NCBI GenBank assembly: GCA_004294095.1
Contig: RDZR01000048.1
Span: 1-42,972 of the forward strand
DNA from: Verrucomicrobiota bacterium
Lineage (GTDB): Bacteria; Verrucomicrobiota; Verrucomicrobiia; Verrucomicrobiales; Akkermansiaceae
DNA length: 42,972 bases
Direction: 5' to 3'
This document shows, in pieces, positions 5,283 through 11,963 of the stretch (positions are counted from its first letter, which is position 1; every line of letters begins with the position of its first letter). The translations under genes and the position numbers were made by a program. The notes under the pieces were generated by a model. It was not told the origin of the DNA and ran no database searches. It saw nothing but the letters and a program-made list of their open reading frames with translations.

Positions 5283-6113
5283 ATGTTGATGAGTTTTTAT
5301 AAAATGAATGGTGCGGGCAATGACTTCATTGTCGTGGATAATCGCGATGATTCGCTGAGCGCCACGTTGGATCGGGAGACGATTAGCGCACTGTGCGATC
5401 GCCACCGTGGGATCGGCGCGGATGGCTTGCTCGCGGTGGAGACTGCCCAGCACGGCGCGGATTTTCGCTTTCGCTATTACAATGCGGATGGGGGGGAGGC
5501 TGAAATGTGTGGCAATGGGGCTCGTTGTTTTGGCCGCTTCGTCGCTCATCTAACAGAAGACGTGAAAGAATCTGTTAGTTTTGAAACCATTTCCGGCACT
5601 CTGACCGCGGAGATGGTGGGGGAGGATGTGCGGATCGCCATGTCGCAACCCAAGGATCTCAAGATGAACTTGGAAATCACCGCAGATGGCCTAACAGAAA
5701 AAGTGTATTTCATCAATACGGGAGTTCCACATGCAGTGGTGTTTGTGAGCGATGAGGAGGCTTTAATGTCGTTGCCTGTTGAGAAGTTGGGTGCGCAGCT
5801 GCGCCATCATGCGGCGTTTGCACCTGCGGGCACGAATGCGAATTTTGCGGCAGTTTTAGAGCATGGGCACATTGCGATTCGCACCTACGAACGCGGAGTC
5901 GAGGGCGAGACGTTGGCCTGCGGCACGGGCATGGTGGCTTGTGCTTTATTGCACCATTTAATGACATCCGCGCCGAGCCCAATTCTCGTCGATGTGGTCG
6001 GTGGCGATACGTTAGAAATTGGGTTTGAGAAAAATGACGTTGGGGACTTTATCGACGTGACGCTCACCGGCCCGGCAGATTTTGTGTTTGAAGGTGAAAT
6101 TCAAATCGAATGA
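5283..6113 (+). CDS. dapF: Diaminopimelate epimerase
   Basis: DapF interconverts LL- and meso-diaminopimelate in the cytoplasm, supplying lysine and the peptidoglycan cross-linking residue; it uses two cysteines as acid and base without a cofactor. Both are present: Cys76 in MCGNGARC and Cys213 in LACGTGMVA. The N-terminal MNGAGNDFIV and the NTGVPHAV block are also typical, and 276 residues is normal length. A GTGAGG sequence lies four bases before the ATG at 5283 and ten before a second ATG at 5289, so the true start may be the latter, which matches family N-termini better. The stop overlaps the trpF start (ATGA), so translation is probably coupled. Confidence 0.96.
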   Translation: MLMSFYKMNGAGNDFIVVDNRDDSLSATLDRETISALCDRHRGIGADGLLAVETAQHGADFRFRYYNADGGEAEMCGNGARCFGRFVAHLTEDVKESVSFETISGTLTAEMVGEDVRIAMSQPKDLKMNLEITADGLTEKVYFINTGVPHAVVFVSDEEALMSLPVEKLGAQLRHHAAFAPAGTNANFAAVLEHGHIAIRTYERGVEGETLACGTGMVACALLHHLMTSAPSPILVDVVGGDTLEIGFEKNDVGDFIDVTLTGPADFVFEGEIQIE

Positions 6114-6811
6114 AAGACAGCTCATGCAAGGGGATGAATCTGTTAGAAAAATTTCTATCCTCGGATTCCGTTTCGTTAAAAATTTGCGGTGTCACCACGG
6201 CGGATGATGGTGCTGCGTTGATCGAGCATGGAGTTGAGGCGCTGGGCGTTAATTTCTGGCCTCAATCCAAGCGTGGCACCACGCCAGAGCAAGCTGCATG
6301 GTTGCTGCCGCTTGCTGGAAAAATTTTGCGCATTGGGGTATTCGTCAATCAGCCAAAAGAGTTTGCGGCCGGGATTTTTGAAAAAGGCATGATCGATGTC
6401 GTGCAACTTCACGGCGATGAAAGCGCGGATGAGGTGACTTATTTTTATGAGCGGCAGATTCCGTTGTTCAGAGCCATCGCGCTGAGGCGGGCGGAAGATG
6501 TCGTTTTACGAGGATGCGAAAGTGCCCACGGCATTTTGTTAGATGCGTATGCACCGGGAGTCTATGGTGGCACCGGTGAGCGTGTGGACTGGGGAGAGGC
6601 GAAAAAATTTCGTGAGCAATATCCGCAGATTGCCATGATTCTAGCAGGTGGCATCACTCCGGAAAATGCGGCACAAGCGGCAAGTCACGTTCGCCCGTGT
6701 GCGTTGGACGTTGCCTCTGGCGCAGAGCTGCGCCCAGGAGTGAAAGACTTCGTGAAAGTGGCCGCGCTGATGAAGGCCGTTGGTTCGACTCATTCGACTC
6801 ATGTTGACTGA
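6110..6811 (+). CDS. trpF: Phosphoribosylanthranilate isomerase
   Basis: TrpF converts N-(5'-phosphoribosyl)anthranilate to the 1-deoxyribulose isomer in tryptophan synthesis. Seen: the catalytic KICGVTT motif with Cys26, the strand VGVNFWPQSKRG-like segment, VVQLHGDE, the acid residue in LLDAYAPGVYGGTG, and the phosphate-binding LAGGITPENA. The product has 233 residues, about twenty more at the N-terminus than usual, so initiation at the internal ATG at 6134 is possible; the 6110 start is kept because it overlaps the dapF stop. The extreme C-terminus carries a perfect in-frame 9-base tandem duplication (6784-6801), giving a repeated Ser-Thr-His. Other tryptophan genes are not nearby. Confidence 0.95.
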   Translation: MKDSSCKGMNLLEKFLSSDSVSLKICGVTTADDGAALIEHGVEALGVNFWPQSKRGTTPEQAAWLLPLAGKILRIGVFVNQPKEFAAGIFEKGMIDVVQLHGDESADEVTYFYERQIPLFRAIALRRAEDVVLRGCESAHGILLDAYAPGVYGGTGERVDWGEAKKFREQYPQIAMILAGGITPENAAQAASHVRPCALDVASGAELRPGVKDFVKVAALMKAVGSTHSTHVD

Positions 6812-7607
6812 TACGCATTGCCACCTCGCTTCTGCACGCTACGAAACCACCGAGGTGCCCGCGATCATTGAGCGCGCCCAGGCCGCGGGTGTGCGGCGCC
6901 TGATCACGCTGGCGACCGATCTCGAGGATCTTGAGCTTTCGCTAGATCTCGCACAACGATCCTCGGTTTATGCCTGCATTGGCATCCATCCATGCTCTGC
7001 TCATGAAGTGACCACAGACGTGATCGAAACGTTGCGAAGTTACGTGAGCGATCCACGCGTCGCCGCGATCGGGGAAACGGGACTTGATTATTTTCACAAT
7101 GCACCGGATGGATGGACAGAGGAAAATTTCCGCAAGCATCAGCGCGCGTTGCTCAGGGCGCATTTTGAATTGGCTTCTGATGCTGGATTAAATGTCGTGA
7201 TTCACACTCGCGATCGCGAGGGCGATCAATCATTGCAGGATGCATTGGCGATCTACGATGATTTTCGGAATAACGTGCGCGCCGTTTTTCACTGCTTTAT
7301 TCAAGGCAGTTCTCAAATGCAGCAAGTGCTGGATCGCGGCGGCATTGTTTCTTTCGGCGGTGTGATGACGTTCAAGAATGCCCATATGGTTCGTGAAACC
7401 GCGCGGCTTGCTCCAGTGGGCTCGTTCATGCTCGAAACCGATTCACCCTACCTCGCGCCTGATCCATTTCGCAGCCAACGCAATGAGCCTGCTTATCTTT
7501 TGCGCATTGCTGAGTGCCTCGCTCAGCTCCGCGGAGAATCACTCGACGAACTAGCAGGGCATTGTGAAAAAACAGCCGGAGCATTCTTTCGGCTGTTAGA
7601 AAAATGA
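6801..7607 (+). CDS. TatD-family metal-dependent hydrolase (DNase)
   Basis: A TIM-barrel metallohydrolase of the TatD/YcfH group, 268 residues. The metal-binding set is complete: DTHCH at the N-terminus, ETGLDYF in the middle, HTRD, HCF, and ETDSPYLAP near the C-terminus. TatD proteins have 3'-5' exonuclease activity on DNA or RNA and are linked to repair and to D-Tyr-tRNA or related housekeeping; the exact substrate here is not visible. A longer frame opens with TTG at 6780, but the ATG at 6801 places MLTDTHCHL at the family's usual start and gives an 11-base overlap with trpF, consistent with one dapF-trpF-tatD transcript. Confidence 0.92.
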   Translation: MLTDTHCHLASARYETTEVPAIIERAQAAGVRRLITLATDLEDLELSLDLAQRSSVYACIGIHPCSAHEVTTDVIETLRSYVSDPRVAAIGETGLDYFHNAPDGWTEENFRKHQRALLRAHFELASDAGLNVVIHTRDREGDQSLQDALAIYDDFRNNVRAVFHCFIQGSSQMQQVLDRGGIVSFGGVMTFKNAHMVRETARLAPVGSFMLETDSPYLAPDPFRSQRNEPAYLLRIAECLAQLRGESLDELAGHCEKTAGAFFRLLEK

Positions 7608-7716
7608 TTTGAATACTTTGTGCCCTTCGCGACGTTTAATCGAGGTGTAGCGTAAATTTTGAATTTGATTTAAGATTCGGCTTGGAGAACTTTTCACCTC
7701 AGATCTAAAAACCATT

Positions 7717-8121
7717 ATGAAGCCTTTGTTATTTCTTACCGTTTGTTCGTTGGCAGGATTCTTCACTGCATGCTCGCCGTATCGCAGCGATGCCTATGAT
7801 ACGCAGCCGCCTGCATCACACTCAGCCAGTGCCTCGCCAGATGCGGCCGTCAATCCTGTTTATGATAGTGCCCCAGCCTACGAGGATAACTCGGCTTCCG
7901 CATACGTCGCCCCTGCATCGCCGTCTGTTTCTTCGCCAGCGGTTCAAGCACCTGCGGCTCCTGATTTCCGCTCGGCTACGATTCACACGGTAGTTGCGGG
8001 CGATACCTTATCTGGCATTGCTGCGAAATACAAAGTGCCAGCTGCATCGATCAAAAAGGCCAACAACATGACGCGCGATATCGTTGTGTTAGGGAAAAAA
8101 ATGGTGATTCCTCCACAGTGA
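7717..8121 (+). CDS. LysM-domain lipoprotein
   Basis: A small envelope protein of 134 residues. The N-terminus is a lipoprotein-type signal ending FFTAC, so Cys19 is the probable lipidation site (Phe at -3 is not the commonest lipobox residue). A proline/alanine/serine-rich linker (about 20-85) leads to one C-terminal LysM domain (about 90-134, HTVVAGDTLSGIAAKY through VLGKKMVIP) that should bind peptidoglycan glycan strands. There is no catalytic domain, so it is more likely an anchor or accessory to a wall enzyme. It sits 109 bases after tatD and 44 bases before the next gene in the same direction. Confidence 0.88.
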   Translation: MKPLLFLTVCSLAGFFTACSPYRSDAYDTQPPASHSASASPDAAVNPVYDSAPAYEDNSASAYVAPASPSVSSPAVQAPAAPDFRSATIHTVVAGDTLSGIAAKYKVPAASIKKANNMTRDIVVLGKKMVIPPQ

Positions 8122-8165
8122 ATTCGACGATTGCAGTGTCACTGCTTTGCTAAGAAACTGCGGCC

Positions 8166-9164
8166 ATGCTGCGATTCAATTGGATTTTGATCAGCCTGCT
8201 AAGCGGGCTGATTTTTCTGCCCCTTGCGCGTGCGGAAATTGATTCCCAAGCGAAGCAAGATCACGCAAGCAAAGCTTCGGATAAAGAGCAGGTGCTGGAA
8301 GTTTTGTTTTCTGAGCGAGATTCTTCAGAGGCTTTTGCCAAAGCCGTGGAACAAGCCAAGCACGCTGGCCTCAATGACCAAGCAATTCTTGAAGCTCGGT
8401 TTTTGTATTTCATCGATTTGCAAGACGACGTTGCAGTGGCAGGTTTGCTGCCCGAGTTTTTGCAAATGAGTGATCAATTTTTGTTAGAAAATTCCGAAAT
8501 CTTTGCCTTCAAGGACGATTGGCTCGCCGTCATTGAATACATTCGTGCCATTGCCAAACTTCAAGCGGGTGACAAGCCGGGATTTAAGCGTCATATCACG
8601 GAGGCATTTTGGTTGAGCCCGCGTCAGGCATCTGCTTTCGGAGTTCACATTCAACGCATGCGTCTAGCAGAAGTTATTGAGTCGGTCGTTATTGATTTTA
8701 ATCGTCGCTTTGCGCCACTTGATTCTGGTGAAGCAATTCCTCTCAAGCAGCTTCAAGAAGGCCGCCGTGCTCTCTTGATTTACTTTTGGTCGCCAGCCAG
8801 TCGTCAATCAGAAGCGCTTCTACCAGATTTTTTAACGATGGCGGCAACGCTTGAATCATCGAACATTGGAGTCATCGCCTTGTTAGCCAATCCCTCGGAC
8901 TCATTGATCGTTTCTGCTAGAGAAATGTTAGGCTCAATCAGTTTGAAAAAACCTGGTTCTTGGTTGTTAGATTCAAAGTCAGATTCATTTGCTAACATTC
9001 TTCGTTTGGATTCTTTTCCTTATGCGTGCTTGATTTCACAGCAGGGAAATATTCTTTTTGCAGGTGATCTATCAGAATCAGCGCTGTGGGATGAGCTGCG
9101 CAAAATTGCGCCAGAAATCCAACGTCCGCAGTTGGATCACGAGCCACCAATGGATGCTGAGTAG
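8166..9164 (+). CDS. Exported thioredoxin-fold (TlpA-like) protein lacking the CxxC pair
   Basis: A 332-residue protein with a clear signal peptide (hydrophobic core, then LARA before residue 25), a helical N-terminal half, and a C-terminal thioredoxin/TlpA-like half. In the latter, LLIYFWSPASRQSEALLP aligns with the TlpA pattern around WCxxC, but both cysteines are replaced (SPASRQS). The cis-proline strand is kept (DSFPYACLIS) and is followed by the usual QQGNILFAGD turn. A redox role is therefore unlikely; binding or scaffolding outside the cytoplasm is more plausible. The fold call is by motif order, not by search. The N-terminal region is not recognised. Confidence 0.65.
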   Translation: MLRFNWILISLLSGLIFLPLARAEIDSQAKQDHASKASDKEQVLEVLFSERDSSEAFAKAVEQAKHAGLNDQAILEARFLYFIDLQDDVAVAGLLPEFLQMSDQFLLENSEIFAFKDDWLAVIEYIRAIAKLQAGDKPGFKRHITEAFWLSPRQASAFGVHIQRMRLAEVIESVVIDFNRRFAPLDSGEAIPLKQLQEGRRALLIYFWSPASRQSEALLPDFLTMAATLESSNIGVIALLANPSDSLIVSAREMLGSISLKKPGSWLLDSKSDSFANILRLDSFPYACLISQQGNILFAGDLSESALWDELRKIAPEIQRPQLDHEPPMDAE

Positions 9165-9288
9165 AGGCTGTCTATCGATACTAGAACGTTAGTAGAAACA
9201 ACAATTCGTTGAAACGATTAGAAAAAATTATTTAAGATTTATTGAAAATCTTAACATTTAAACTTGACGGAAGTGCAAACTACTATTT

Positions 9289-9945
9289 TTGTGGTGGATA
9301 GATCACATGAACGATTGCATGACATCGCCAACGCATCCTTCCAATCTTGAGTTACAAGCTCTATCAGTTTTGTGGCATGGAGGTCCGCTGACAGTGGGGG
9401 CAATCCTGGAATCGTTGCCTGATGGCAAAGAGCGAGCATACACGACCGTGCTGTCGGTGATGCAAAGCCTCGAACGAAAGAATCTCGTCAAACGTATGAA
9501 GACCGGCCGAGCACATGTTTATGTGCCGGCCTATTCGCAAGAATTGATTGTGCAGCGAGCTACACAAGATTTTCTAACAAACGCGTTTGGAGGACGTCTT
9601 GAAGAGGCGATCCTCGCAATACTCTCCGCTGGCACATTGACGCTAGAAGAGAAACTAAACATTGAACGCGAACTCCAACGACATAAGACCATGGCTGCAA
9701 AAAAAACAGCAAAGAAAGCAGCGGTAAAAACCGCCAAGAAAGCCGCCGTAAAAAAAGCGGCACCTAAAGCACCTGCTAAAAAAGCCCCTGTGAAGAAGGC
9801 GCCAGCTAAAAAGGCGCCAGCTAAAAAAGTGGCGAAAAAAGCAGTTAAAAAGGTCGCCAAAAGTGCGAAAAAAGCAGTAACGAAAGTTGCTAAAAAGACA
9901 GTTGCTAAAAAAGCACCTGCCAAAAAAACAGCTAAGAAGAAGTAA
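9289..9945 (+). CDS. BlaI/MecI-type repressor fused to a histone-H1-like Lys/Ala tail
   Basis: Residues about 15-130 form a BlaI/MecI/CopY winged-helix regulator (LELQALSVLWHGGPLTVGAI, then AYTTVLSVMQSLERKNLV as recognition region, and a C-terminal dimer helix). The last 85 residues are almost only Lys, Ala, Pro, Val and Thr in KKA/PAKK repeats, as in bacterial H1-like proteins such as chlamydial Hc. The two parts are in one uninterrupted frame. An ATG at 9691 begins exactly at the tail (MAAKKTAKK), so a separate H1-like protein could also be made by internal initiation; I see no strong ribosome site before it. For the long form, ATGs at 9307 or 9319 are likelier starts than the GTG at 9289. 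No BlaR-type sensor is adjacent. Confidence 0.85.
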   Translation: MWWIDHMNDCMTSPTHPSNLELQALSVLWHGGPLTVGAILESLPDGKERAYTTVLSVMQSLERKNLVKRMKTGRAHVYVPAYSQELIVQRATQDFLTNAFGGRLEEAILAILSAGTLTLEEKLNIERELQRHKTMAAKKTAKKAAVKTAKKAAVKKAAPKAPAKKAPVKKAPAKKAPAKKVAKKAVKKVAKSAKKAVTKVAKKTVAKKAPAKKTAKKK

Positions 9946-10021
9946 CCAATTCCCGAGTCTCATTGAAGCACTCGCGGATATCCCGCGGGGCTGAAAATCA
10001 GTTCCTCAACGGGATTTCAAG

Positions 10022-10047
10022 GGCGGAAGACTCTAGGGTCTTCCGCC
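10022..10047. terminator. Perfect hairpin between convergent genes
   Basis: GGCGGAAGAC and its exact complement GTCTTCCGCC flank a six-base loop. The hairpin lies between the end of the BlaI/H1-like gene and the end of the leftward gene at 10050, so it can serve both strands. The T-rich tail is weak (TCTTAG on plus), so termination may be only partly intrinsic. Confidence 0.7.
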
Positions 10048-10049
10048 TC

Positions 10050-11963
10050 TTAGTTGGGAGATTTTTCTTGTTGATTGTCTAGGTTTTGTTTTTGAGCGTC
10101 AAATAAATGGCGTAAATCATCACCTACTTCTTGGCCAAGAGCACGTTCAGCTAGGTTGATCGAATTTTGATTGAGGAATTGCCTGCGTTTAGAAGCAAAG
10201 AGTGAGATCTCAGGAATGATTTTCACCCCATGAGCGGTCTCGATCAGTGCCACGATCTGATGAGTCATTGTATCAGCTTGTTGGATTTCAACGGCTGCGA
10301 TGGAGAGGAATTTCCCATGAGAAATTTGAGTGACGCGGGTTTTGTTATCCGGATTTTTTGCTAATAAGAGATCATAACTGAGATTGCGTATGAGGGTATT
10401 GCGCGAGGAATCTGAATCGCTGAGTTGAGCCGTGCTTGAAAGCATGGGGAGCAATCGGCCACCACGCATGGCATCTAACCATTGGTGGGTTGCTTCGCTC
10501 GCAAGGTCGTCACTCGGTGGTTTGATCTTGCCATTATGCTGTATGATCGTTGAGTTTTGGAAGATTTCTTTGAATGATATAGGCGAAAGTTCTTTGGGTG
10601 ATGGCGTTGGCAAGTTGTGAGAAGTAAGCAATGCGGAAGTGTTAGGGTTTGGAATCCAGAGCCAACGATTCTCCTCGCGCTGTAGGTAAAGGCTGCGCGT
10701 TTTGATACGGCTTGGTTGATCTGATGAGAAGATGTGCACAGCTGCGAGCCATAATGAGTCGTTCGAGGCGATGGGCTTGATCACCACATCTCGAATGATC
10801 GTCGCATCATGAAAAGATTTCCACAAATCCATGATGGATGAAAAGTCTGCTTGCAGCGTGGTGCCTTTTGGTTGAGCTAATTTGAGGAGTGGACCTGGGG
10901 TGGGGGCGAATAATGCTTGCTGCCACTCGTGGCATGCCATTTCAGTGGTTGGTAAATGATCTGCTAGGTTTTGACGCAGATAGATTCTAACAAATTCGCT
11001 GGTTGGAAAATTGTTGAATACCTTAGAGCCATTCTCACTCGATCTGATAGATTGAGTATTAAAATCAATTTGCCAACTGAGGTTAGGAGTCCGTTGAATT
11101 ATGAAATCAAACTCGATGATGCTGTCTGCAAGCTCTCCACTTGTAATCAATGCGGCAATGCCGAAAGTATGCACATCATTTTTGGATGATTCATAACTGA
11201 TGACGCGCAGCGTTTGTGGCAAAGTGATTTGATGAAGCCAATGATTTGGAGTGTTTGGTAGCTTTAGCGAATCGATGATGCGAATTCGTTCTAACCAATT
11301 GTTAGGAGGCTCATCGGCATGCCCACCTAGCAAGGCGAGTGCAGTGAGACGGTCTCCAGTGGCACAGGCATTGAGAAAGACTTCCAATGCTTCTCTGGCA
11401 TTGAGCTGTATGACGGAATCATGTGTGACATGCGCATTGATTTGCTCACGAATGATGCGAAATGAGGCTTGCTGGAGATTTTTAAGTTCATCCATTTGTT
11501 TAGTGAGCATCCAATTTTCTAACAAGCGCGCGTTTTCGCGGGTTTGATTGGAAAACATGGCGCGCGTATTTTCAAAGGAAGCCGGAACGGGTGCCACCAG
11601 CCATTCGTCCGCAATTCGAATCAGGCCAAGAGGTAGAACACGGTCTGTGGTTGAAGCTGATGGGTCAATTTTTAAGATCATCACGGCTGCAAGATTGCCA
11701 TCTGTATTTACGCTGCCGATGGTTAGCTTCGCATCCTTGATTTGTGACGCGACGTTTTGCCAAATGAAGTCGATGGCTTGTTTTTTCTCCACATTGGTCG
11801 TCGGCAACATCGCAGTGCCTTCCAAGAAATTTTGGCCAAAGTTGTGGATTTTTACTTTTTCCAAAAATCCCAATGCGGCATCACTGGGAGATGTTGCGGC
11901 GGCATGCGCAGACAAGTTGAAAATAATCAGTGCAGAAAGTAATTTCACTCTGAGGAAATTCAT
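10050..11963 (-). CDS. Exported protein of unknown function
   Basis: About 637 residues with a signal peptide (MNFLRVKLLSALIIFNLSAHAAA). I recognise no family. The body alternates segments that look like repeated alpha+beta units, each containing a phrase of the type ADEWLVAPVP, NRWLWIPNP or PNLSWQIDF, which suggests three or four related NTF2-like modules, but that is an impression. No metal or catalytic motif is evident. An upstream ATG at 12065 would add 34 residues before the signal peptide and overlap the next gene by 67 bases, so the start at 11963 is preferred; the gene then follows the YdjM-like gene by 35 bases and is probably co-transcribed with it. Confidence 0.75.
   Translation of the reverse strand: MNFLRVKLLSALIIFNLSAHAAATSPSDAALGFLEKVKIHNFGQNFLEGTAMLPTTNVEKKQAIDFIWQNVASQIKDAKLTIGSVNTDGNLAAVMILKIDPSASTTDRVLPLGLIRIADEWLVAPVPASFENTRAMFSNQTRENARLLENWMLTKQMDELKNLQQASFRIIREQINAHVTHDSVIQLNAREALEVFLNACATGDRLTALALLGGHADEPPNNWLERIRIIDSLKLPNTPNHWLHQITLPQTLRVISYESSKNDVHTFGIAALITSGELADSIIEFDFIIQRTPNLSWQIDFNTQSIRSSENGSKVFNNFPTSEFVRIYLRQNLADHLPTTEMACHEWQQALFAPTPGPLLKLAQPKGTTLQADFSSIMDLWKSFHDATIIRDVVIKPIASNDSLWLAAVHIFSSDQPSRIKTRSLYLQREENRWLWIPNPNTSALLTSHNLPTPSPKELSPISFKEIFQNSTIIQHNGKIKPPSDDLASEATHQWLDAMRGGRLLPMLSSTAQLSDSDSSRNTLIRNLSYDLLLAKNPDNKTRVTQISHGKFLSIAAVEIQQADTMTHQIVALIETAHGVKIIPEISLFASKRRQFLNQNSINLAERALGQEVGDDLRHLFDAQKQNLDNQQEKSPN

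Follow-up and report, generated by a model that had tools for sequence, protein, structure and literature searches.

A predicted H1-like gene nested in frame within a BlaI/MecI-type repressor gene of Akkermansiaceae, preceded by a putative RNA leader in the repressor code

The sequence comparisons presented here point to a nested gene pair in a single reading frame of a Verrucomicrobiota bacterium (Akkermansiaceae; contig RDZR01000048.1), in which one mRNA probably gives rise to two products, the repressor fused to an H1-like tail and the H1-like protein on its own. Positions refer to the window, the whole stretch of 42,972 nucleotides that was analysed. Across relatives, the fusion and an ATG at its junction are conserved, the surrounding nucleotides are constrained as such, the sense RNA ahead of the ATG is structured, and the inner gene persists where the DNA-binding part of the repressor is missing. 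An internal start at ATG 9691 is strongly supported at the level of sequence. A previous sequence-only reading of the locus had proposed that it may yield both a long regulator and a free H1-like protein, a proposal which the frozen codons, the hairpins and the decoupled genomes described below support. The two open reading frames are as follows:

9319..9945, + strand: outer ORF, BlaI/MecI-type repressor continuous with the H1-like tail (208 aa; 212 aa from the possible ATG 9307)
9691..9945, + strand: inner ORF, predicted H1-like basic protein of 84 aa from ATG 9691, based on the conserved ATG, a gene without the DNA-binding part in genomes G052 and G300, and a free gene in g24

The region 9289-9945 forms a single open frame on the + strand. 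The frame stands as originally read, but its start at TTG 9289 does not: homology places it at ATG 9319, which corresponds to the Met of aligned relatives where these begin with Met (ATG 9307 is the alternative), and TTG 9289 ends a conserved upstream stretch. The part up to 9690 is a BlaI/MecI-type repressor. Penicillinase_R (PF03965) is matched in the frame with an E-value of 2.5e-23 and 83 bits against a Pfam cut-off of 22.6, and the best Foldseek matches of an AlphaFold2 model are MecI (1okr) and BlaI (1sd4), with TM-scores by target of 0.76-0.82; by these matches the model has the overall BlaI/MecI fold, while its residues 144-212 (of 212) have a pLDDT <50. BlaI/MecI repressors typically, though not universally, have a BlaR1/MecR1 sensor protease as partner. 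The genome of the window contains no match to Peptidase_M56 (BlaR1/MecR1-type), and BlaR1-type signalling was rejected on that basis; in the alignment A-I takes the place of the N-F of BlaI, so that the repressor lacks the Asn-Phe site cleaved in such signalling. The outer gene is the sole PF03965 match in its genome and is classed as an orphan BlaI/MecI-type repressor.

Counted from ATG 9691, the tail comprises 84 residues and not the 85 given at first, with 35 K, 27 A, 9 V, 6 P, no acidic residue and a pI of 11.5; HC2 (PF07382) matches it weakly, at 21 bits and under the Pfam cut-off of 40. The PF03965 score, the Lys/Ala/Pro chain and the conserved fusion bear out the description of a winged-helix repressor joined to an H1-like tail. 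K/A/P-rich tails are used more than once in the same genome. On contig C32, an ORF (L134:417-1688, - strand) was seen by eye to encode MAAKKITKKLAKKK, a long K/A/P-rich stretch and then a DksA/TraR-like C-terminal part, and on contig C7 a gene (L002:614-880, + strand) encodes a small basic protein (GQQHKKLIKRRRRTDYLKRKKE...), K/A-rich towards its C-terminus, and shares 39 bp at 87% identity with the window tail.

Searching other Verrucomicrobiota showed that most members of the genus have the fusion, and that it extends to additional family-level groups within the order. The repressor part is matched in 87 of 99 relatives at an E-value of 0.001, distant homologues included. Among 61 genomes of the genus, 55 have a strong, nearly full-length match, one match is cut by a contig end and five genomes have none; the matches that bear names are MAGs, most of them deposited under Akkermansiaceae or Verrucomicrobiaceae. 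Beyond family f1, the fusion is found at seven loci of family f3, one of f6 and one of f2. Tails at 75 loci with a closed frame measure 27-174 residues (median 128), with 36-63% Lys+Arg and four acidic residues altogether, and the fused proteins form one cluster in a tree, which is only moderately supported (81/72; 82% of bootstrap trees). In a sample of the phylum, 26 of 387 genomes match at an E-value of 1e-18 or better; matches outside the order are frames of 125-171 aa, and the K/A tail is absent from the 15 loci examined outside the order or outside the fused group. A fusion outside the order was rejected on the basis of these short frames and tail-less loci. Many members of the genus share the gene order trpF-like, TatD-like, LysM protein, 332-aa protein and repressor-H1 gene (window 6110-9164), in which the LysM protein was identified by Pfam and the names trpF and TatD are presumed.

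Of 87 loci aligned, nine without a junction match were excluded, namely L048-L050 (fused, no Met), L057, L058 and L071 (no tail), L059 and L100 (one locus of genome G070) and L120 (contig ends right past the Met). The codon analysis rests on 67 of the remaining 78 loci, of equal ungapped length and at least 52% identity. A stop between the two parts in close relatives had been named as the sign of a frameshift artefact; none was found in the 67 aligned orthologues or in 10 fetched later, where the frame is open throughout, so that the fusion stands and a frameshift or assembly artefact is rejected. The exception is the distant genome G070, an eighth f3 locus, where the repressor frame is broken ahead of the junction and MAAKKK plus the tail are intact in another frame. 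This is possibly a third decoupling, possibly a sequencing error (G070, like G052 and G300, is a draft genome), and a single broken copy does not make the fusion in the window an artefact.

The ATG at the junction is present in 67/67 codon-aligned orthologues and in 10/10 of those fetched afterwards as a check, among which G332 and G014 may duplicate L061 and L069, already counted. It opens the motif M-A-A-K-K or one of its variants (M-P-A-K-K, M-A-V-K-K, M-A-K-K-K). The same holds for f3 and f6, whose linker ahead of the junction differs in sequence and, in f3, in length. The nucleotides around it carry the following features:

9583..9714, + strand: frozen synonymous stretch, codons -36 to +7 about the inner ATG (codon alignment of orthologues)
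9590..9615, + strand: hairpin 1 of the RNA leader (consensus fold and pairing statistics)
9623..9652, + strand: hairpin 2 of the RNA leader (consensus fold and pairing statistics)
9653..9690, + strand: A/C-rich leader without a Shine-Dalgarno sequence, directly 5' of the inner ATG (composition)

In the 67 ungapped orthologues, the synonymous conservation index is 0.61 for codons -36 to +7 against 0.14 for codons -121 to -38, the codon columns behind both values not being independent. The best 44-codon stretch of this gene reaches 0.51, compared with 0.13, 0.15, 0.21 and 0.24 in four neighbour genes (loci of the same group, 38-50 sequences per gene), and third-position G+C of the frozen stretch barely correlates with that of the upstream part (r 0.21). 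Codon bias alone was rejected as an explanation, since the four neighbours show nothing comparable and Arg is frozen as CGC at codon -8 and mostly as CGA at -4. The start codon is thus kept beyond the need of the protein, with synonymous sites frozen on either side of an ATG that is invariant in these orthologues, and it behaves like a real start exactly at the tail, where it had been noticed. A second and weaker rise in synonymous conservation lies at 9436-9471 (codons -85 to -74; index 0.31 against 0.14).

The frozen stretch folds as sense RNA. Removal of near-copies left 60 of the 67 sequences (alignment A1), and 55 sequences were used for the consensus fold; its energy is -23.1 kcal/mol on the sense strand and -7.1 on the other, and codon-column shuffles average -2.7 (sd 2.0), with 0 of 100 reaching the sense-strand value. 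Pairing is possible in 96.0% of cells against 46.6-59.9% in slid controls (60 sequences), a figure favoured by the derivation of the structure from these same sequences, and six stem pairs show changes on both sides. Native energies lie on average 2.33 sd under synonymous shuffles (67 sequences, 53 of them below -1.5), and other segments lie at +0.24 to -1.47 (30 sequences). Non-Watson-Crick stem cells (70 sequences) comprise 94 G-U and 12 A-C, an excess that matches the expectation for sense RNA. A protein-binding site in the DNA or an antisense RNA could also freeze codons, and inverted repeats would suit a dimeric binding protein too; such an element is nonetheless highly improbable, as the G-U/A-C asymmetry disfavours it and the other strand folds far worse. 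Rfam gives no match up to an E-value of 1 for 9200-10050, and a known RNA family was discarded.

Between hairpin 2 and the start codon, the leader is rich in A and C: the A+C fraction of the last 30 nt is 0.77 against 0.52 for the gene (70 loci), and 0.80-0.93 at eight f3/f6 loci with other linkers. In f1 loci an SD-like tetramer stands ahead of only 16 of 223 ORFs (start taken as the first ATG), a rarity that agrees with the counting of Akkermansia among SD-scarce bacteria (PMC10783764). The f3 locus L060 is an exception, with AAGGAG ahead of the inner ATG. Strong hairpins also precede this ATG at f3/f6 loci (L060, L093-L097, L099), with no sequence likeness to f1, so that convergent or fast-evolving leaders are possible readings. 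The TTGGAG of the hairpin 1 region (window 9586-9678) can pair instead with CTCCAA just 5' of the inner start, in RNA the GGAG arm with CUCCAA, and this competing fold has the minimum energy in several relatives; the leader may possibly adopt two states. The element also contains a short +1-frame ORF (window 9589-9641) with GGAGG, a TTG here or GTG in relatives, and a TGA/TAA end, whose stop is preserved by TTA or TTG at codon -18 in 61 of 67 sequences (by eye).

A search with a covariance model built on the element hit 110 of 195 family genomes at an E-value of 0.01; the weakest matches include free genes and Met-less fused copies, the latter arising through shared coding sequence. In two genomes the leader, ATG and tail are kept without the DNA-binding part of the repressor. 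G052 has no repressor match in its genome, yet both hairpins, ATGGCTGCAAAAAAA and a lengthy K/A tail are still found beside the usual upstream neighbour gene; in G300, with its TatD neighbour upstream, the repressor is reduced to residues 77-124, the portion coding the element, and ATG and tail are intact. In genus g24, the ATG of five fused copies is replaced by TTG (G262, G178), CTG (G267, G195) or CGA (G292), and all five genomes possess a separate free M-A-A-K-K or M-P-A-K-K gene. The inner gene therefore persists without the outer one, both in G052 and G300 and as free genes in g24. Further g24 members keep the ATG together with a free copy (G164), keep the ATG (G277), or have a free copy plus a merely distant repressor homologue of 29% identity (G282). 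When five free leaders were folded, a hairpin appeared at the position of hairpin 2 in all, with two strong hairpins in L169-L171, and CCAACAACACAATACACAT 5' of the ATG in four free loci resembles CTCCAACGACACAAAACC of fused genes.

Four Met-less copies (L048, L049 and L173 of g24; L050 of g25) have the consensus codon at 27 of 89 sites, and the two Met-keeping g24 copies at 42 of 63; distant Met-keeping genera have 41-75%, a range that overlaps the best Met-less copy (11/25), so that single loci overlap. Outside g24, the Met-less genomes G187 and G258 gave no clear free copy in a protein search that also missed the known one in G262. In genus g21, no free H1-like gene was found by protein in 5 genomes or by start pattern in 11, with searches that are insensitive (the former missed the G262 gene, the latter matched only 5 of 25 genomes).

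These genomes weigh on the reading that only the fusion is made, the frozen stretch serving mRNA stability, co-translational pausing or another function and the tail raising DNA affinity. Such a reading accommodates the frame that is open in 67/67 aligned orthologues, and the short K-rich tail retained by Met-less g24 copies may help the repressor itself. We consider it improbable, given that leader, ATG and tail survive in G052 and G300 without the DNA-binding part, and that loss of the ATG accompanies loss of the codon pattern and, in g24, a free gene.

Transcription of the locus was approached through its flanks:

9264..9269, + strand: TTGACG, -35-like element of the outer promoter, conserved in most of 77 upstream regions compared
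9277..9289, + strand: AAACTACTATTTT, operator-like inverted repeat, imperfect here (upstream-region comparison)
10022..10047, + strand: strong hairpin past the gene, candidate terminator (fold)

The promoter repeat has the form ACTA-C-TAGT in many members of the genus, and TACTA/TAGTA-like repeats occur in f3. A strict pattern of promoter plus repeat was found once each in 5 of 20 genomes, always at this gene, and is absent from the other 15, that of the window included. The repeats suggest autorepression and hence control over both products, and the mRNA is probably autorepressed. Free H1-like genes of g24 possess promoters of their own and a long leader; some 300 bases 5' of their ATG (L168-L171, L219) lies the inverted repeat CTAGAATTCTAG (CTAGATTTCTAG in L168), which, itself or as a close variant, is spaced from TTGAC much like CTACATnCGTAG in some g24 repressor promoters (L049, L173). 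This gives a hint that the repressor may still govern the split-off gene. The hairpin at 10022..10047 is possibly a shared transcription end of two convergent genes; a consensus scan gave no terminator-like site on the + strand.

It is also conceivable that the free H1-like protein comes from a separate short mRNA that begins within the repressor gene and carries the hairpins close to its 5' end. Two hairpins ahead of a start do look like a 5' UTR and would otherwise be opened by ribosomes in passage, and in g24 the free genes come with promoters of their own and a long leader. We regard such an internal promoter as somewhat unlikely, because a sigma-70-type scan, which covers that promoter type only, found no + strand site in 9300-9690, and because the distal promoter-like TTGACGGATATCCTAA is retained in G300 despite the lost DNA-binding part.

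For the nested pair on one mRNA, we propose that transcription would begin from the promoter near 9264, and that both starts would be used: initiation at 9319 would make the repressor carrying the H1-like tail, and initiation at 9691 the H1-like protein alone. For the inner gene, the final portion of the repressor coding sequence would also be a structured 5' leader, in which two hairpins are followed by A/C-rich sequence that is largely unpaired and then by a start codon needing no Shine-Dalgarno. By binding the inverted repeat of its own promoter the repressor would control both products, and the tail would bind DNA. Only tentatively do we speculate that the two-hairpin leader is a dedicated SD-independent start element, perhaps a switch, setting the ratio of targeted fusion to free H1-like protein. 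If it is a start element, the dimerisation part of the repressor is coded by the functional 5' UTR of another gene, which would couple the amount of a nucleoid protein to autoregulation within a single gene. We think it unlikely that a real inner protein acts on polyphosphate, RNA or storage granules and not on the nucleoid. AlgP of Pseudomonas, with its H1-like KPAA-repeat tail, is described as required if polyphosphate granules are to be evenly spaced (PMC9239181). The physical link with a DNA-binding repressor speaks rather for DNA, without deciding the matter, and the free protein may compact the nucleoid as Hc1/Hc2 do.

A gene caller would yield one protein from this locus where the evidence points to two, and the H1-like protein may be unannotated across much of a bacterial family. 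The proposed pair would be a clean case in which one stretch of code is protein domain, structured RNA leader and SD-less start region. Internal initiation in SD-scarce bacteria becomes directly testable, with genomes lacking the DNA-binding part of the repressor or the internal ATG as natural controls. The question is raised why a repressor carries, and perhaps controls, an H1-like protein.

Precedents exist separately for in-frame nested genes, for BlaI-type repressors and for H1-like proteins. Among the papers listed in the literature searches, none described a BlaI-H1 fusion or an H1-like start nested in another gene; relative to the literature searched, the predicted nesting of an H1-like gene and its structured leader in repressor code appears new. 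Like the BlaI/MecI/CopY repressors (PF03965), the window protein combines a winged helix with C-terminal helices, and MecI and BlaI are its best structural matches; unlike them, it has an 84-residue H1-like tail, its genome lacks an M56 peptidase, and its coding sequence would double as an RNA leader. With chlamydial Hc1/Hc2 (HctA/HctB) and Pseudomonas AlgP the tail shares a Lys/Ala/Pro-rich, disordered basic chain and the weak PF07382 match, but it is nested in frame in a repressor gene, with a structured leader within coding sequence. HctA synthesis is under translational control by the sRNA IhtA (PMC4355289, PMC3469542), and control at translation is likewise proposed for the inner gene. 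Two proteins from one frame through internal initiation are exemplified by infB (IF2 alpha/beta) and the long and short forms of CheA (PMC11005335), and are predicted here as well. What sets the present locus apart is that its inner part would be a protein of a different kind, encoded in relatives by a free gene too, and that conserved hairpins mark the overlap, in a lineage with little use of Shine-Dalgarno sequences.
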